The notes under the pieces are model-generated. The model was not told where the DNA came from. It was given only the letters and a program-made list of their open reading frames with translations, and searched no databases. Position numbers and translations under genes: made by a program. From Mailhella massiliensis (GTDB lineage: Bacteria > Desulfobacterota > Desulfovibrionia > Desulfovibrionales > Desulfovibrionaceae): a DNA stretch of 64,000 nucleotides. The DNA lies in assembly GCF_900155525.1 (NCBI RefSeq), contig NZ_LT706952.1, forward strand, positions 940,406-1,004,405, in the 5' to 3' direction. Shown here in pieces: positions 55,971 to 64,000 of this stretch. Positions within the stretch are counted from its first letter, which is position 1; every line of letters begins with the position of its first letter.

Positions 55971-57929
55971 ATGTCCGGCGAAAACCCTACCTGCAACAAC
56001 CTGCTGGCACTTCGGGAAGCCTTTAAAAAATACGAACCCATCGACCGCTCCCAGGTGAGACCCTTCATTCTCGCTTCCTGGGAACGCTGCCGCGCCTGTT
56101 CCGACAGGCGCAGAATAGAAAAACCCGTTTCTCCCGAGTTTCTGGCCGATGCCCTGAAGCGGAACCACGAACTTCTGGAAAGCTCGGTTCCCATCATGGA
56201 AAAACTCTTCTCCTCCATCAGCGCAGCCCACAGCGTCATCGGGCTGGCCGACAGCTCGGGACTCATCCTGCACATCGTCGGCCATGAAGAGGACATCAAC
56301 GCCCTCTCCGTATTCCAGAAAGGGCTTTTTGCCACGGAAGAACACTCCGGCACCAACGGCATAGGCACGGGGCTCGTGGAACAGCGAGCCATTGAAATCA
56401 TAGGCGCGGAGCACTACTACGGCAACGCCACGGAATGGAGCTGCTGCAGCTCTCCCATCTACAACGAAAACACGCTGGTGGGGATACTCAACATTTCCAT
56501 CAACGTGGAAAACCATCATCTGCACACCATAGGCATGGTGGAGGCCGCGGCCTATGCCGTTTCGGAACAGCTCAGACTCCGTCTCCTTCTGAAGGAGCAG
56601 AACGCCATGCTGGAGTTTCTGGATGAAGGCGTGCTCATTCTGGACGGAGAAGGACGCATCCGGGCCATGAACAACAGGGCCAGGGCCATGCTCGGAACAG
56701 GAACGTCCACCGGCAGCGGTTACCCCGTGGGCGCGCACCTTGGCGAAATCATCCTCTCCGGCGAAGGACTCGACGGTATGCTCGCCGCACGAAGACGCAT
56801 CAACGACAGGGAAACCACACTCAAGCTGGCGCACGGAGCTTTTCAGTACGCCGTTTCCTGCGCTCCCATCGAAGACGGAGGCTCCATCATCACCCTGCGC
56901 AGCATCAAACGTATGCGCGAATACGCCACGCGCATGATGAGTTCCGGCGCGGCCTATTCCTTTGAAAACATCGTGGGCGATTCCACCGCCATACGCGAAG
57001 TGATACGCCTTGCGCGACGGGCCTCTCAAAGCGACATCACCACACTCGTACTGGGGGAATCGGGTACGGGCAAGGAACTCTTCGCCCAGTCCATTCACAA
57101 CGCCAGCGCCCGAAGCGGAGGTCCCTTCGTGGTGGTGAACTGCGGTGCCATTCCCAGAACGCTGCTGGAAAGCGAGCTTTTCGGCTATGAGGACGGCGCC
57201 TTCACCGGAGCCAGAAAGCAGGGCAAACCCGGCAAGTTCGAACTGGCCGACGGCGGCACCGTGTTTCTCGACGAGATAGGCGAACTTCCTCTGGATGCTC
57301 AGGCAAGCCTGCTGCGCCTTCTGCAGGAAAACGAGGTCGTCCGCGTAGGCGGCACCACGGCAAAACACATCGACATCCGCGTGCTGGCCGCCACCAACCG
57401 CGATCTTGAGGAGGCCGTGCGTCAGAAAACCTTCCGCAACGATCTGTACTACCGCCTCAACGTGCTCACCATCACCATTCCGCCGCTGCGCGACCGCAAA
57501 ACGGATATACGCCTGCTTTCCGCCTTCTTCCTCGACAAGTTCTCCCGCGCTCTGGGCAGGCCCGGCGCAGGCTTCACCGAAGAAGCGCTGGAAGCCCTGT
57601 CCCTCTACTCATGGCCGGGCAACGTCCGCGAACTGGAAAACGTGATAGAACGTACCATCAACATTTCCGCCTCGCCGCTCATTCAGGTTTCCGACCTTCC
57701 GGCCCATATTCTCCAGAGCCGTTCTCTGGAAGCTCCGGTATCCTATTCCCAGCCCGCATCCCGGAACAATCTGCTGAAGGCGCAGGAAATGGAAACCATC
57801 ATGGAAATGCTCCGGCAGACGCGGGGCAACATGCGTCTTGCCGCCCAGGAACTGGGCATAGCCCGCTGCGTTCTGTACCGCAAAGTCAAGCAGATGGGCA
57901 TGACGCCCGACATGTGGCGGAACAAATAG
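55971..57929 (+). CDS. Sigma-54-dependent enhancer-binding regulator (AcoR-like: GAF, PAS, AAA+, Fis)
   Basis: 652 residues. The N-terminal half holds a GAF-like sensor (about 55-200, IGLADSSGLILHIVG...EHSGTNGIGTGL) and a PAS-like segment (about 205-300, LDEGVLILDGEGRIRAMNNRARAML). The AAA+ domain (about 325-560) has Walker A GESGTGKE, the sigma-54-contacting GAFTGA in FGYEDGAFTGARK, and Walker B VFLDEIGELP. The C-terminal Fis helix-turn-helix reads NMRLAAQELGIARCVLYRKVKQMG. No response-regulator receiver domain, so it senses a ligand directly. It should activate the promoters at 55120 and 58072, which share upstream repeats. Confidence 0.93.
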   Translation: MSGENPTCNNLLALREAFKKYEPIDRSQVRPFILASWERCRACSDRRRIEKPVSPEFLADALKRNHELLESSVPIMEKLFSSISAAHSVIGLADSSGLILHIVGHEEDINALSVFQKGLFATEEHSGTNGIGTGLVEQRAIEIIGAEHYYGNATEWSCCSSPIYNENTLVGILNISINVENHHLHTIGMVEAAAYAVSEQLRLRLLLKEQNAMLEFLDEGVLILDGEGRIRAMNNRARAMLGTGTSTGSGYPVGAHLGEIILSGEGLDGMLAARRRINDRETTLKLAHGAFQYAVSCAPIEDGGSIITLRSIKRMREYATRMMSSGAAYSFENIVGDSTAIREVIRLARRASQSDITTLVLGESGTGKELFAQSIHNASARSGGPFVVVNCGAIPRTLLESELFGYEDGAFTGARKQGKPGKFELADGGTVFLDEIGELPLDAQASLLRLLQENEVVRVGGTTAKHIDIRVLAATNRDLEEAVRQKTFRNDLYYRLNVLTITIPPLRDRKTDIRLLSAFFLDKFSRALGRPGAGFTEEALEALSLYSWPGNVRELENVIERTINISASPLIQVSDLPAHILQSRSLEAPVSYSQPASRNNLLKAQEMETIMEMLRQTRGNMRLAAQELGIARCVLYRKVKQMGMTPDMWRNK

Positions 57930-57948: not shown

Positions 57949-57994
57949 GTCTCTTGGAGATACATGTTATCTGATACATGTCTCTCCAAGAGAC
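57949..57994. promoter_or_regulatory. Long palindrome containing two ATACATGT repeats (activator site of the catabolic operon)
   Basis: Perfect 12-bp outer arms GTCTCTTGGAGA (57949-57960) and TCTCCAAGAGAC (57983-57994). Inside, ATACATGT (57960-57967) and ATACATGT (57974-57981) with a 14-bp period. It lies 80-120 bp upstream of the -24 element and directly after the regulator gene. Confidence 0.65.
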
Positions 57995-58071
57995 GAAGAG
58001 ACACTCCCCCCGGCATGCGATACATATTTCTAACCTGCCGGATTATCATGCTTTCGTAAACTTTTTCACTT

Positions 58072-58087
58072 TGGCACGCTTCTTGCT
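58072..58087 (+). promoter_or_regulatory. Sigma-54 promoter of the catabolic operon
   Basis: TGGCACG-CTTC-TTGCT, a perfect consensus match, 37 bp before the AOR-like start codon. Confidence 0.93.
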
Positions 58088-58123: not shown

Positions 58124-59308
58124 ATGTATCGTTACGCCCGCATCAACATGTCCACCGGCAACGTCCGGGTTTTCGACCTCCCCAGGGAACGATGGATGCT
58201 CGGCGGCCGTGGGCTGATAAGCCAGGTTCTCTATACGGAGATGAACCCGGGCGCCGATCCGCTCAGCCCCGGCAACGTGCTGGTGCTCGCCTCGGGCATG
58301 TTCGCAGGCTGCCCCCTTTCCTGCTTCGATGAAGTTTTCCTCGGCGCGAAAAGCGCTTCCACCGGGCAGATGCAGATACTCCGCTTCATGAGCCGCGCCT
58401 CGCGGATCATGGCTTCCATGAACATGCGCCTCGCCATCATCGAGGGCCGCCCCTCCACGGAAAAACAGTACGTTCTCGTCATGGACAGGGGACGCGTCGA
58501 ACTGCAGCCCGTAAGCGAACTGCTTCCCGGATCTTATGAAGAGCTCGGCAGCTATGCCCTCAACGAGGGCCTGCACCGGCATTTCGGCGGCAACGCCTGC
58601 ATCATGTCGTGGGGACATGCCGCCGCCGTGGGGAGCCCCGAAGCTTCCCTGCTCGTTTCCGGTTCTTCCGACAATATATTGAAGAATATCCCCGGCCTGG
58701 GCCTGAGCGCCGTCATGGCCGCCAAAGGATTGCGGGCCATCGTTCTGCGCGGCGGAGCGCCTCTTCTTCCGCAGAAAACGGCAGGCGGCCGGGCGGACAG
58801 CATCTGCCGCGACACGGCATGCCTGCTCCGCTGTGCAAGAGTCCACAACGATCTGGAACATACTCCCTACGGTCAGGTCAGCCTCTGCCGGGCCTGCATG
58901 GAAAGCACCCCGCCGCCCTGTCTGGAAAGAGTATGCACCGATCTCGGCCTTTTCCCGGACGGTCTTTCCCCGGAATTCGGCGAACTCTCCCTTGCCGATG
59001 AAGATGCGCTGCGCCGCCGCCTCATGGAACGCTGTCGTGAGAGAACGGATGCTGCAGATGCTGTCTTCCCCGGAGAGGACGCCGCCTTCGAGCAGGCCGG
59101 AGCCGCCTTCGACAGCATGGGTCTGTGCCGAAACGCCCTGCCTCCTGAAGAACAGGAACGGACGCTGACGCTCATGGCGGATCTCGCCCGCGCCGTCTAC
59201 GGGGGCGAGTGGAGCAGAGACTCGCTTCTGCGCATGGGCGCGGAAACCATCAGCAGGGAAAGGGCGTTCAACGACTGGGCCGGCCTTCAGCCTGCGGAAA
59301 ACGAATAA
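58124..59308 (+). CDS. Truncated aldehyde:ferredoxin oxidoreductase-like protein
   Basis: 394 residues; true AORs are about 600. The N-terminal tungstopterin-domain pattern is clear (WMLGGRGLISQVLYTEMNPGADPLSPGNVLVLASGMFAG) and so is the later NIPGLGLSAVMAAKGLRAIVLRGG. The ANSGG-type segment that contacts the cofactor is replaced by EVFLGAKSASTGQM, and the cluster-type Cys are spaced C-x4-C-x3-C (CRDTACLLRC) with more Cys after. The C-terminal AOR domain is mostly missing. It may be an inactive or repurposed relative. First gene of the sigma-54 operon, 30 bp before the amidohydrolase gene. Confidence 0.8.
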   Translation: MYRYARINMSTGNVRVFDLPRERWMLGGRGLISQVLYTEMNPGADPLSPGNVLVLASGMFAGCPLSCFDEVFLGAKSASTGQMQILRFMSRASRIMASMNMRLAIIEGRPSTEKQYVLVMDRGRVELQPVSELLPGSYEELGSYALNEGLHRHFGGNACIMSWGHAAAVGSPEASLLVSGSSDNILKNIPGLGLSAVMAAKGLRAIVLRGGAPLLPQKTAGGRADSICRDTACLLRCARVHNDLEHTPYGQVSLCRACMESTPPPCLERVCTDLGLFPDGLSPEFGELSLADEDALRRRLMERCRERTDAADAVFPGEDAAFEQAGAAFDSMGLCRNALPPEEQERTLTLMADLARAVYGGEWSRDSLLRMGAETISRERAFNDWAGLQPAENE

Positions 59309-59338: not shown

Positions 59339-60169
59339 ATGAGCATCATCGACATGCGTTTCCGCCCGGCTACGCGCGAAACGCTTCAGGGCATTCTCAC
59401 CAATCCTCTCTATCAGGCCTTCAGTGCGGCCACGAACTTTGCCGCCCGCCCTGCCAGAACACTGGATGAGGAAGTGGCCATGCTGCGCGATCTCGACGTG
59501 GTGCACGCCGTGGTCACCGGGCGCGACATCGCCTCCAGCGTGAATACCGCCTCCACCAATCCCGGTATGCTGGAAAGCATCCAGAAGTATCCCGACTTCT
59601 TCACCGGCTTCTACGGCATCGATCCGCTGCTGCGCATGGATGCGCTGCGCGCCTTCCGTCGTGCGGTGAAGGAATACGGCGTGAAGGGCGCCTCCATCGA
59701 TCCGGCCATGTCCGGCGTGGCCGTCAACAGCGCCCTCTACTACCCCTTCTACGCCGCCTGCTGCGAAGAAAACATTCCCGTGGCCATCACCACGGGCTGC
59801 TCCTGCGGTATGCCCCACGTGGTGCTGGAGCATCACGCCCCCTGGCTCATCGACCGCGTGGCCTCCGATTTTCCCGAACTGACCATCATCGTCAGTCACG
59901 GAGCCTATCCCTGGATCATGGAAATGGTGGGCGTGGCCACGCGCCATCAGAACGTCTATCTCGACTTCTCCGCCTGCACCATGCTCTTCAACGTGGAGCA
60001 GTACGTCCATGCGGCGAACCGCCAGCTCATGAACAAGGTGCTGTTTGCAAGCGCCCACCCCTTCGACCACATCGCCGATACGCTGAAGCTCTACGACTCC
60101 CTGCCCTTCACGCAGGAGGCGAGAGAATGCGTCATGTACAAAAACGCGGCGAAGATTCTCGGACTCTGA
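59339..60169 (+). CDS. Amidohydrolase-2 family metal-dependent hydrolase/decarboxylase
   Basis: 276 residues from ATG 59339 (AAGGAG upstream). TIM-barrel pattern: the expected N-terminal metal-binding HxH is replaced by IIDMRFRP. YPFYAACCEENIPVAITTGCSC is followed by IIVSHGAYPWIMEMVGVA and LDFSACTM. The final Asp is in FASAHPFDHIADTLKLYDSLPF. The family includes hydrolases and non-oxidative decarboxylases. The loss of the first two His may change the metal or activity. Substrate unknown; probably acts on a product of the glycyl radical enzyme or on the imported compound. Confidence 0.82.
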   Translation: MSIIDMRFRPATRETLQGILTNPLYQAFSAATNFAARPARTLDEEVAMLRDLDVVHAVVTGRDIASSVNTASTNPGMLESIQKYPDFFTGFYGIDPLLRMDALRAFRRAVKEYGVKGASIDPAMSGVAVNSALYYPFYAACCEENIPVAITTGCSCGMPHVVLEHHAPWLIDRVASDFPELTIIVSHGAYPWIMEMVGVATRHQNVYLDFSACTMLFNVEQYVHAANRQLMNKVLFASAHPFDHIADTLKLYDSLPFTQEARECVMYKNAAKILGL

Positions 60170-60314: not shown

Positions 60315-61328
60315 ATGAACAAGTTCCTGAAAGGTTGCCTGGTCTTCGGCCTCATCGCCGCTTTCGGCGCCGCCATGCCCCAGCAGAGCGAAGCCAAGGA
60401 GAAAAAGATCCTTATCCGCATCTCCCACACCGGTTCGGAAGGCAACGAATTCACCATGGGCTATGAGAAGTTCAAGGAACTTCTGGAAAAGAAGACCAAC
60501 GGCCGCGTGGTGGTGAGAATCTACCCCAACGCCGTGCTCGGTTCCGACCGTGTTGCCGGCGAAGCCGTGCAGCAGGGCAACCTGGAAGTGGCCTCCATCG
60601 CCACCAACATTCTCTCCAGCTTCCACAAGAGCGCCCTGGCCTTCGACATGCCCTACATGTGCGATCCTGAAAAGATGATTCCCTACATGCAGGCCCTCGC
60701 CTACGGCGATCTGAACAAGTATCTGGTGGAACAGCTCGCCACCGTGGATCTGTATCCCTTCATGTTCAACGCCACGGCCATGCGCTCCTGGGCCTTCACC
60801 TCGAAAGACGTGAAGAGCGTGGAAGACCTCAAGGGGGTGAAAATCCGCTCCACTCCCTCCCCCATCGACATCGCCAACTGCAAGGCCGTGGGCATGAACC
60901 CCACCGCTCTGGCCTTCGACGCCGTGTATCAGGCCCTTCAGCAGGGCACCGTGGAAGGCGAACTGCTTTCCTTCCTCTCCATGAAGAGCTTCGGCCGCGC
61001 CGAAATCCTCAAGTACATGTATGTGACCCAGCACAACTTCCCCATCCACATCGGCTGCATGAGCAAGAAGTTCTACGACTCCCTGCCCGCCGACATCCAG
61101 CAGGCCGTCATGGAATCCGCCAAGGAAGCCCAGGAATGGGAATGGACGCTGCTCGACCAGCTGGAAAAGGAAGGCCTCGAATACTGCAACCAGAACGGCG
61201 TGAAGGTGAACTTCCTCGACGACGCCCAGAAGGCCGCCCTCAAGGAAAAGTTCAAGGTCGTGTGGGATGAGTTCGGCCCGCAGCTCGATCCCAAGATGGT
61301 GCAGCTGCTCCAGGACGCCCAGAAGTAA
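60315..61328 (+). CDS. dctP: TRAP transporter substrate-binding protein (DctP type)
   Basis: 337 residues from ATG 60315 (ACGGAGG upstream). Signal peptide about residues 1-27. The DctP fold is evident (HTGSEGNEFTMGYEKFKELLEKKTNGRVVVRIYPNAVLGSDRVAGEAVQQGNLE), with the carboxylate-binding Arg in LKGVKIRSTPSP and the closing DAVYQALQQGTVEGEL. Such proteins bind carboxylates or sulfonates and hand them to DctQM. Context with a C-S-lyase-like enzyme suggests an organosulfonate. A terminator-like hairpin follows, probably giving more DctP than membrane subunits. Confidence 0.92.
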   Translation: MNKFLKGCLVFGLIAAFGAAMPQQSEAKEKKILIRISHTGSEGNEFTMGYEKFKELLEKKTNGRVVVRIYPNAVLGSDRVAGEAVQQGNLEVASIATNILSSFHKSALAFDMPYMCDPEKMIPYMQALAYGDLNKYLVEQLATVDLYPFMFNATAMRSWAFTSKDVKSVEDLKGVKIRSTPSPIDIANCKAVGMNPTALAFDAVYQALQQGTVEGELLSFLSMKSFGRAEILKYMYVTQHNFPIHIGCMSKKFYDSLPADIQQAVMESAKEAQEWEWTLLDQLEKEGLEYCNQNGVKVNFLDDAQKAALKEKFKVVWDEFGPQLDPKMVQLLQDAQK

Positions 61329-61499: not shown

Positions 61500-63371
61500 A
61501 TGGTCGACAACAAGCTTGCACCAAACCAGGGCGGCATCCTGCACTGGCTTGACGAAAACTTTGAAAAACCTTTTCTGGTCATCGCCCTTCTGATGTCCAT
61601 AGCCCTCATCACCTATCAGGTACTGTTCCGCCACATCGCCACGAACATACTGGGCATTGCCGGTTCCACGGCGGAAGTGGAAGAACTTGCCGTGTGGTGC
61701 TTCATCTGGCTTTCCTACCTTTCCGTGCCGCTGCTCATCAAGGCTCGCGCCAATATCAACATCTCGCTGTTCTTCGATGCCATGCCCAAGCGCATCCAGA
61801 ACATGCTCTGGGTGCTGGATGAAGGACTGTTCCTCGTCTTCACCTGCGTTCTGGCCTACCTCTGCTACAACCTTTCCATGCTTCAGCTGGATAAGCCGCA
61901 GTTCTCCCCGGCCATGGGCGTTTCCTATTTCTACCCCTATGTTGTTCTGCCCATCAGCTTCGCGCTCATGAGCATACGCCTTATCCAGAATCTCATCCGG
62001 CAGATCCGTAAAACGGGCCTTCTCGATTCCGCCATCGCCATTGCCGCCGGTCTGCTGCTCGCCACGCCCATCATTTTCCAGTGGGAACTGGAAATCGTCA
62101 CCGTGCTCGGCTGCACCATGTTCGTCTGCCTCATGCTCGGCGTGCCCATCGCCGTCACCCTCGGCTTCTCCGCCATGGCCGCCCTGTACAATTCGGAATT
62201 TCTGCACATTTCCACGCAGGCATCCACATGCTTCTCCGCGCTTGATTCCTTCACCATCATGTCCATCTTCTTCTTTGTGGCCGCCGGCGTGTTCATGGGC
62301 ATGGGCGGCCTTTCCAAGCAGCTCATCAACCTGGCCGACATTCTTGTAGGCAAGGCCGTGGGCGGCATGGCCCTTGCCACCGTACTCACATGTATGTTCT
62401 TCGCCGCCATCTGCGGTTCCGGCCCGGCCACCGTGGCCGCCATCGGAGCCATCACCATTCCGGCCATGGTGGAACGCGGCTACGACAAGCGCTTCGCCGC
62501 CGCTCTCGTGGCCTGCGCAGGCTCCATCGGCGTCATGATTCCGCCGAGCAACCCCATGGTGGTGTACGGCGTCATCGCCAAGGCCTCCATCGGCAAGCTC
62601 TTTTTAAGCGGCATCATTCCCGGCATTCTCGTGGGCGCCGTGCTCATGGGCTGGAGCTACTACCTCAGCAAAAAAAATAACTGGAGAGGCAATCCCGAAA
62701 AGCTCACGAAAAAGCAGATCCTCCAAGCCATATGGGAAGCCAAATGGGCGCTCATGGTGCCCGTCATCATCCTCGGCGGCATCTACGGCGGAATCATGAC
62801 TCCCACCGAAGCCGCGGCCATCAGCGCAAGTTACGGCCTTCTCGTCGGCATCTTCGTGTACAAGGGCATCAACCGTCACAACTTCTTCAGCGTCTGCATC
62901 GAATGCTGCACCACCAGCGCCGTCATCATCTTCCTCATCGCCATGGCCAGCAGCTTCGGCTACCTGCTCGCCCTTGAACAGGTGCCGGAAAGCATCGCCA
63001 AGGCCATTCTCTCCGTCACCAACGACAAGTATCTTGTACTGCTGCTCATCAACCTCTTCCTGCTGGTCGTGGGCGCGCTCATGGAACCTGCCGCAGCCAC
63101 CATCATCCTCACCCCCATCCTCGCCCCCATCGCGACGAAGCTCGGCGTGGATCTTATCCACTTCGGCCTTATCATGACCGTGAACCTCGCCATCGGCTTT
63201 GTCACGCCCCCTGTGGGCTCCAACCTCTTCGTGGCCAGCGCTACCAGCGGGCTGAAGGTGGAGGCCATCGCCAAGGCGGCCATTCCCATGATCATTCTCA
63301 TGATTGCGGTGCTCTTCGTTCTTACCTATGTTCCTTCCATCTCCCTGTTCCTCCCGAACCGCATGATGTAA
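61500..63371 (+). CDS. dctQM: TRAP transporter membrane subunits DctQ-DctM fused
   Basis: 623 residues from ATG 61500 (GGAGGAG upstream). Residues 1 to about 165 are the four-helix DctQ part (YQVLFRHIATNILGIAG...AVWCFIWLSYLSVPLLIKARANINISLFF). A linker helix joins it to the DctM part, with about twelve helices: LLATPIIFQWELEIVTVLGCTMFVCLMLGVPIAVTLG, the FFAAICGSGPATVAAIGAITIPAMVERGYDKRFAAALVACAGSIGVMIPPSNPMV core, and FVTPPVGSNLFVASA near the end. Imports the DctP ligand with Na+. Confidence 0.94.
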   Translation: MVDNKLAPNQGGILHWLDENFEKPFLVIALLMSIALITYQVLFRHIATNILGIAGSTAEVEELAVWCFIWLSYLSVPLLIKARANINISLFFDAMPKRIQNMLWVLDEGLFLVFTCVLAYLCYNLSMLQLDKPQFSPAMGVSYFYPYVVLPISFALMSIRLIQNLIRQIRKTGLLDSAIAIAAGLLLATPIIFQWELEIVTVLGCTMFVCLMLGVPIAVTLGFSAMAALYNSEFLHISTQASTCFSALDSFTIMSIFFFVAAGVFMGMGGLSKQLINLADILVGKAVGGMALATVLTCMFFAAICGSGPATVAAIGAITIPAMVERGYDKRFAAALVACAGSIGVMIPPSNPMVVYGVIAKASIGKLFLSGIIPGILVGAVLMGWSYYLSKKNNWRGNPEKLTKKQILQAIWEAKWALMVPVIILGGIYGGIMTPTEAAAISASYGLLVGIFVYKGINRHNFFSVCIECCTTSAVIIFLIAMASSFGYLLALEQVPESIAKAILSVTNDKYLVLLLINLFLLVVGALMEPAAATIILTPILAPIATKLGVDLIHFGLIMTVNLAIGFVTPPVGSNLFVASATSGLKVEAIAKAAIPMIILMIAVLFVLTYVPSISLFLPNRMM

Positions 63372-63465: not shown

Positions 63466-64000
63466 ATGAGCTGTTGCTGCGCTCTTTCCACTCAGGAAAA
63501 AATTCTTCAGGACAAGGCCGCGGGCAAGGACAATCCCAACCGCGCAAAGCATCAGAGACTTTTCGACATTCTGGAAACCTTCGACGGCATGGCTCCCATC
63601 ATCGACGCGGACCGCGCCCTGCTCTTCACCCAGTCCATGAAGGAAACCGAAGGTCAGCCCCTGAATCTGCGCTGGGCCAAGGCCCTCATGAACATCGCCA
63701 GAAACATTCCCGTACATATCGACGACCGCCAGCTTCTGGCCGGACGCTGCGGCACCACGGGCCGCTACGGCATTCTGTACCCGGAACTGGACGGCGATTT
63801 CATGGCCGACGCCCTCGATGCCCTGGCCGAAGCGAAAACCGCCGCTCCCATCAGCGTTTCCCCCGAAGTGGCGGCCATAGTCCGCAACGAGATCACCCCT
63901 TACTGGAAGGGAAAAACCTTCCATGAAGATCTCAACCGTTCCCTGCCGCCGGAAGTGCACCGCCTCGCCTACAACGACGAGCTCGGCATCAAGACCCGTT
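63466..64000 (+). CDS. Glycyl radical enzyme, isethionate sulfite-lyase-like, N-terminal part (cut by window end)
   Basis: The first 178 residues from ATG 63466 (AGGAG upstream). The start MSCCCALSTQEKILQDKAAGKDNPN, the LRWAKALMNIARNIPVHIDD segment, GRYGILYPELDGDF and ITPYWKGKTFHEDL resemble the sulfonate C-S lyases IslA/HpsG and related PFL-like enzymes. The active-site Cys and the C-terminal glycyl-radical Gly lie beyond the window, as would the activating enzyme gene. Expected role: cleave the imported sulfonate by a radical mechanism, releasing sulfite for respiration. A choline- or diol-lyase relative cannot be ruled out from this part alone. Confidence 0.78.
   Translation, partial: MSCCCALSTQEKILQDKAAGKDNPNRAKHQRLFDILETFDGMAPIIDADRALLFTQSMKETEGQPLNLRWAKALMNIARNIPVHIDDRQLLAGRCGTTGRYGILYPELDGDFMADALDALAEAKTAAPISVSPEVAAIVRNEITPYWKGKTFHEDLNRSLPPEVHRLAYNDELGIKTR

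Follow-up and report, generated by a model that had tools for sequence, protein, structure and literature searches.

Locus and operon

The window, the 64,000-nucleotide stretch of Mailhella massiliensis DNA analysed here, ends within an operon predicted to degrade sulfonates, the first gene of which (sAOR) encodes a shortened homologue of the AOR family of tungsten oxidoreductases. The features of this operon, by position in the window, are as follows:

55971–57929, + strand: REG, a sigma-54-dependent activator with GAF/PAS, AAA+ and Fis-type HTH domains (domain matches)
57949–57994, no strand: inverted repeat made up of two GATACATG units, following the activator gene and ahead of the sigma-54 promoter (intergenic sequences compared by eye)
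58071–58087, + strand: sigma-54 −24/−12 promoter, TTGGCACG-CTTC-TTGCT (motif match, 0 mismatches)
58124–59308, + strand: sAOR, a 394-residue shortened AOR homologue and putative pseudo-AOR (open reading frame, Pfam, orthologues, AlphaFold2 model)
59339–60169, + strand: AMI, the second operon gene, for a protein of the Amidohydro_2 family (domain match)
60315–61328, + strand: DctP, a TRAP solute-binding protein (domain match; sister operons)
61500–63371, + strand: DctQM, a fused TRAP permease (domain match; sister operons)
63466–64000, + strand: GRE, an IslA/HpsG-clade glycyl radical enzyme (NCBIfam NF048011), running past the window (L003:7872-10364)

An initial annotation of this DNA, made from the sequence alone, had placed sAOR at the head of an operon behind a near-perfect sigma-54 promoter, and this was borne out: chance would yield a mean of 0.25 such matches per window even with one mismatch allowed, and the site (TGGCACG-N4-TTGCT) lies 5' of all six sAOR copies that we recovered, in a weaker variant, TGGCATAACTTTTGCA, in G005. 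An ATACATG motif within a palindromic element is likewise found upstream of all six copies, and the inverted repeat at 57949–57994 is the probable binding site (UAS) of the activator, which is 76–94% identical in four sister operons.

The GRE is followed by its activase and then by an Fe-alcohol dehydrogenase. The order regulator, sAOR, amidohydrolase, DctP, DctQM, GRE and activase recurs in four sister genomes, with the Fe-alcohol dehydrogenase also present in three of the four operons, and G005 carries the same operon genes spread over several contigs. The GRE matches NCBIfam NF048011 (HpsG) with 1329 bits (cut-off 1000) and keeps R189, Q193, W374, C468, E470, R678 and G805 of IslA; the pocket position F682, F in IslA, is V in the GRE and I in the 6lon sequence. 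Scores were near-equal against 5ymr (presumably an IslA; 1153 bits), 7kq3 (IslA; 1129 bits) and 6lon (which we take to be HpsG; 1073 bits), leaving isethionate, DHPS and other compounds as candidate substrates. Mailhella species have been reported as likely to respire isethionate, and 75% of 48 genomes had homologues of hpsGH/islAB (PMC13219744).

The host genome encodes at least five more IslA/HpsG-clade GREs (L179, L180, L181, L182, L183; C16, C21, C28, C18), 55–59% identical to the GRE of the window operon and keeping the equivalents of R189, Q193, R678, C468, E470 and G805. The F682 position is F, V or I among them, and this differing pocket position suggests that the host set may comprise sulfite-lyases for different sulfonates. 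In the stretches examined, no AOR-like gene was found beside these additional enzymes. Amidohydro_2 proteins repeatedly accompany the host GREs (59339–60169 in the window, L179:4239-5078, L180:9138-9977 and L181:9926-10825), and a predicted amidohydrolase is also listed for a Bilophila isethionate cluster (PMC8667426). A related operon in another Mailhella genome, G001 (L103, C3; GRE 73%, DctQM 75%), carries neither sAOR nor the amidohydrolase between regulator and DctP. Because that operon has no room for sAOR, the gene is not required for this class of GRE; because both genes are missing from it, sAOR is a lineage-specific addition. Further along this region of G001 (L103) comes another set of TRAP transporter, activator and activase genes.

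A shortened AOR homologue confined to one operon

Pfam matches support the proposed homology to AOR, with AFOR_N covered whole (residues 3–210, 2.7e-30; 106 bits versus a cut-off of 29.8) and AFOR_C in part (model positions 262–331 only, residues 321–391). About 200 C-terminal residues had been described as missing. In fact sAOR is about 190 residues short, and relative to full-length AORs the loss is spread over three places: about 70 residues ahead of the Cys motif, about 70–90 from there to DxxGLC, and a further 40 or so at the C terminus. The C-terminal piece of sAOR, DSMGLC...ERAFN, aligns with AOR residues 489–538.

The gene is intact in five species at 394–396 residues, with orthologues of 395–396 residues (61–80% identity) in four other Mailhella genomes; a fifth other genome holds N- and C-terminal fragments, both cut by contig ends. 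The initial annotation had proposed looking next to glycyl radical enzymes for homologues of equal length, and every copy found does belong to the one glycyl-radical operon. In other genera of the family, 269 genomes gave no match at E≤1e-30; at E≤1e-25, 297 class-wide genomes yielded, outside the genus, only two full-length AORs, matched over the N-terminal half, and plasmid relatives were distant AORs only, again matched over the N-terminal half. Among the matches listed in a 198-genome scan, AFOR_N frames of fewer than 450 residues lay near contig starts. A sequencing frameshift hiding a normal AOR, or a split gene with its C-terminal half encoded elsewhere, would make the short form an artefact, to which we assign practically no probability: the same length and synteny recur across independent assemblies, no orphan AFOR_C was found in the host genome and the next gene begins 30 nt after the sAOR stop.

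Cofactor, catalytic and cluster residues

Residues of sAOR were compared with AOR positions in PfAOR numbering, via an alignment to 1aor, using a column table of 65 full-length AORs versus the sAORs. Cofactor contacts were taken from the AORAa structure (PMC10413684), with catalytic residues also from PMC13328260. The following segments, all on the + strand, were distinguished:

58124–58753: AOR domain 1 (residues 1–210), beta-rich fold retained (Pfam AFOR_N, column table)
58331–58333: E70, at AOR R76, a pterin phosphate contact (columns; PMC10413684)
58382–58393: residues 87–90 (RFMS), at AOR N93-x-G95-G96, Mg/pterin contacts (columns; PMC10413684)
58682–58702: residues 187–193 (KNIPGLG), at AOR R182-A-A-G-R186-G-G (column table)
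58805–58834: C228-x4-C233-x3-C237, corresponding to the [4Fe-4S] motif C288-x2-C291-x3-C295 of AOR with a different first spacing (alignment)
58886–58897: C255-R-x-C258, a new pair invariant in six sAORs (alignment; model confidence below 50)
58934–58936: C271, at the AOR C337 position, the next residue being the AOR D338 site (alignment)
59111–59128: D330-SMGL-C335, at AOR D489-xxGL-C494, which combines the pterin motif with the fourth ligand of the cluster (present in all copies)

Much of the tungsten-bis-pterin contact set has been replaced (R76, N93, G95 and D338), with R182 read as K in all six sAORs and D489 and C494 kept. At R76, R in 64 of 65 AORs, the sAORs have E, S or K; at N93, N in 61 of 65, they have R or S; G95 and G96, glycine in every AOR of the table, are M and S; R186 is lost (G/S), and the pterin contact D338 is T or A. 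All sAORs lack the segments bearing the catalytic residues E313, Y427 and H448, as well as the one with K450 (E313 and H448 are each present in 64 of the 65 full-length AORs). Retained in the sAORs are GGRG27-30, E39, N51, K76, G164, G193, K201, D330, G333, C335, E379, F382 and N383. These columns bear out the reported change in the ANSGG segment and loss of cofactor contacts. With the catalytic and most tungsten-cofactor residues gone, sAOR is, as had been supposed, unlikely to be an aldehyde oxidase, and it is very probably a pseudo-AOR that does without the bis-pterin tungsten cofactor.

The cysteines give a different picture. Their spacing is indeed altered (C-x4-C-x3-C in sAOR versus C-x2/3-C-x3-C in AOR), but cluster features, which had been described as lacking, are not wholly gone: each of the four cluster cysteines has a counterpart (C228, C233, C237 and C335) in the five full-length copies. 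C233, C237 and C335 are in register with AOR C291, C295 and C494; C228 is displaced outwards by one or two residues from the position expected for C288, and MAFFT placed it outside the C288 column. The most divergent copy (G005, L010) has K at C233. The new pair C255-x2-C258 and C271 are invariant in six sAORs. The pair, whose column 255 is Gly in 64 of 65 AORs, could fit the new cofactor-binding scaffold suggested earlier, but it lies in a low-confidence loop of the model. Across residues 211–386, mean pairwise identity was 0.80 near the cluster cysteines versus 0.58 elsewhere, and 0.76 for the non-Cys residues of the same segments (Mann-Whitney p 0.009); in domain 1 it was 0.77. Cysteine columns were invariant in 6 of 9 cases versus 58 of 206 columns in the six-row region (p 0.016; p 0.09 on five rows), which points to a modest excess of invariant cysteines. 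On these alignments, the balance tips slightly towards a retained [4Fe-4S] cluster.

Predicted fold and origin

AlphaFold2 modelled sAOR poorly from the six sAORs alone (pLDDT 39) and well once the 65 AORs were added (pLDDT 80.4, pTM 0.85), with low-confidence stretches at residues 216–220, 251–263, 309–317 and 390–394. The model matched AORs in Foldseek with E down to 3.4e-19 and in VIA-align with Z 33–34 over 362–364 residues (1aor: Z 33.3 over 364). As AORs were in the folding alignment, these matches indicate compatibility with the AOR fold and are no independent proof of it. Superantigen-like and ubiquitin-like domain matches (Z <4, residues 112–211) were disregarded as a common arrangement.

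A 70-row tree groups the five full-length sAORs in a single clade (100/100), with a stem 2.48 changes per column long; the closest branch is that of the full-length AORs from G001 and G114. Since the program warned of long branches and of unlike composition, the single origin of sAOR is the one firm result; kinship with the G001 and G114 proteins is tentative, the joining branch being very long. Another full-length AOR, in G115 (L145:8478-10537), is apparently split into two overlapping frames by a frameshift or assembly error.

Selection and alternative explanations

sAOR evolves under purifying selection, with dN/dS of 0.17–0.26 in five species pairs, weaker than that on most of its neighbours (0.03–0.05 for the GRE and mostly 0.05–0.16 for the others; in the G010–G012 pair, a start-codon extension inflates the amidohydrolase value, and the Fe-alcohol dehydrogenase value comes from a fragment). 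By amino acid identity, no other operon gene changes as fast in most pairs (61–64% where the GRE is at 95–96%). Together with the conservation of operon and promoter in six Mailhella genomes, these values indicate that the gene is kept on purpose, where the earlier view had spoken of deliberate expression. The same data allow a less purposeful history, in which a decayed AOR copy persists because it is translated from the first position of the operon, while itself contributing little. The long stem of the sAOR clade would fit such a remnant, as would the operon's highest dN/dS in the G000–G014, G000–G010, G000–G017 and G010–G017 pairs, but the ratios remain well below 1, and five species keep the gene intact at near-constant length with invariant cysteines and local peaks of conservation, which together make decay improbable. 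A chaperone had been suggested earlier; a role as chaperone or subunit of a full-length AOR would draw on the shared fold and on the full-length AOR that the host genome does encode (C13). We consider it very improbable, since G017 (97% complete) has sAOR and no full-length AOR was found there; in addition, no AOR gene lies near any sAOR copy.

Two further explanations concern what, if anything, the protein binds. sAOR could still be a metallo-pterin enzyme that holds one pterin through D330xxGLC335 and K187 and catalyses a different reaction at a reduced site. The conservation of D489xxGLC494 in all copies, the conservative K at R182 in all six and the presence of the cofactor-synthesis gene MoaC in all genomes searched, G017 included, are compatible with this, but the replacement of R76, N93, G95, G96 and D338 and the deletion of E313, Y427, H448 and K450 leave it quite unlikely. 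Alternatively, sAOR may be a sensor or protein-binding scaffold with no cluster, in which the surface of domain 1 binds a partner or ligand (activator, amidohydrolase or GRE) and the conserved cysteines have a structural role or form a redox disulfide or a Zn site (C255xxC258, C271). Conservation in domain 1 is close to that of the cluster segments, M89, S90, I189 and P190 substitute conserved AOR residues yet are conserved among the sAORs, and the new CxxC is invariant in six. However, three of the four cluster ligand positions are in register, with the fourth off by one, and conservation in the second half of the protein peaks at the cluster segments; we regard the clusterless explanation as unlikely, although it deserves some weight.

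Proposed role

We give about even chances to sAOR being a pseudo-AOR kept by selection in a sulfonate operon, probably as a [4Fe-4S] accessory protein. The bis-pterin tungsten cofactor and aldehyde chemistry would have been lost once, in the ancestor of a Mailhella subgroup, with selection then retaining sAOR as the first product of the sigma-54-controlled operon. The kept parts (domain 1, C228/C233/C237, D330-xxGL-C335 and the helices after it) would include those that hold the cluster beside the former pterin site, and sAOR would most likely bind one [4Fe-4S] cluster. The operon setting suggests that it could serve low-potential or redox-sensitive chemistry, for example by supplying electrons to, or sensing redox state for, the radical-SAM activase and GRE, or by holding partners together; a role for the activase specifically is doubtful. 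Loss of the tungsten-cofactor and catalytic residues, retention of the fold and most cysteines, and a constant place as first operon gene give sAOR the look of an enzyme turned to use as a helper.

Tungsten oxidoreductases are described as varying very little in their cofactor-coordinating residues (PMC13328260), and no truncated or pseudo-AOR was described in the literature searched (open-access main texts). Tentatively, sAOR could represent the first AOR/WOR pseudoenzyme branch, with tungsten catalysis given up for electron transfer or redox sensing through iron-sulfur (possibly through a second metal, at C255xxC258) in the exclusive service of the GRE system. A protein that has dropped the cofactor site while selection maintains its fold and most cluster cysteines would offer a natural experiment on the capabilities of a tungsten-free AOR scaffold. 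Its strict tie to one glycyl radical operon points to a new accessory part in sulfonate respiration, which is a source of hydrogen sulfide in gut Desulfovibrionaceae such as Mailhella (PMC13219744).

Comparison with known systems

The operon shares its GRE, activase, TRAP transporter and alcohol dehydrogenase with the IslA/HpsG clusters of Bilophila and Desulfovibrio (isethionate and DHPS sulfite-lyases), for which no AOR-like gene was described in the literature searched. The full-length AORs of G001 (L097:13630-15492) and G114 (67%) match sAOR in both halves, and the G001 gene adjoins a divergent sigma-54 activator and an Fe-alcohol dehydrogenase that shares 61% identity with the one in the window operon; unlike the sAORs, both proteins keep their cofactor and cluster residues, and neither gene directly adjoins a glycyl radical enzyme. 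Compared with the AOR/WOR large subunit in general (AFOR_N plus AFOR_C; PDB 1aor, 8c0z, 9g7j, 9mqx), sAOR is shorter, has lost the cofactor contacts and catalytic residues and has gained a C-x4-C-x3-C spacing and a new CxxC, whereas the two have in common a whole domain 1, the DxxGLC...FN C-terminal piece, the predicted fold and counterparts of the cluster cysteines.
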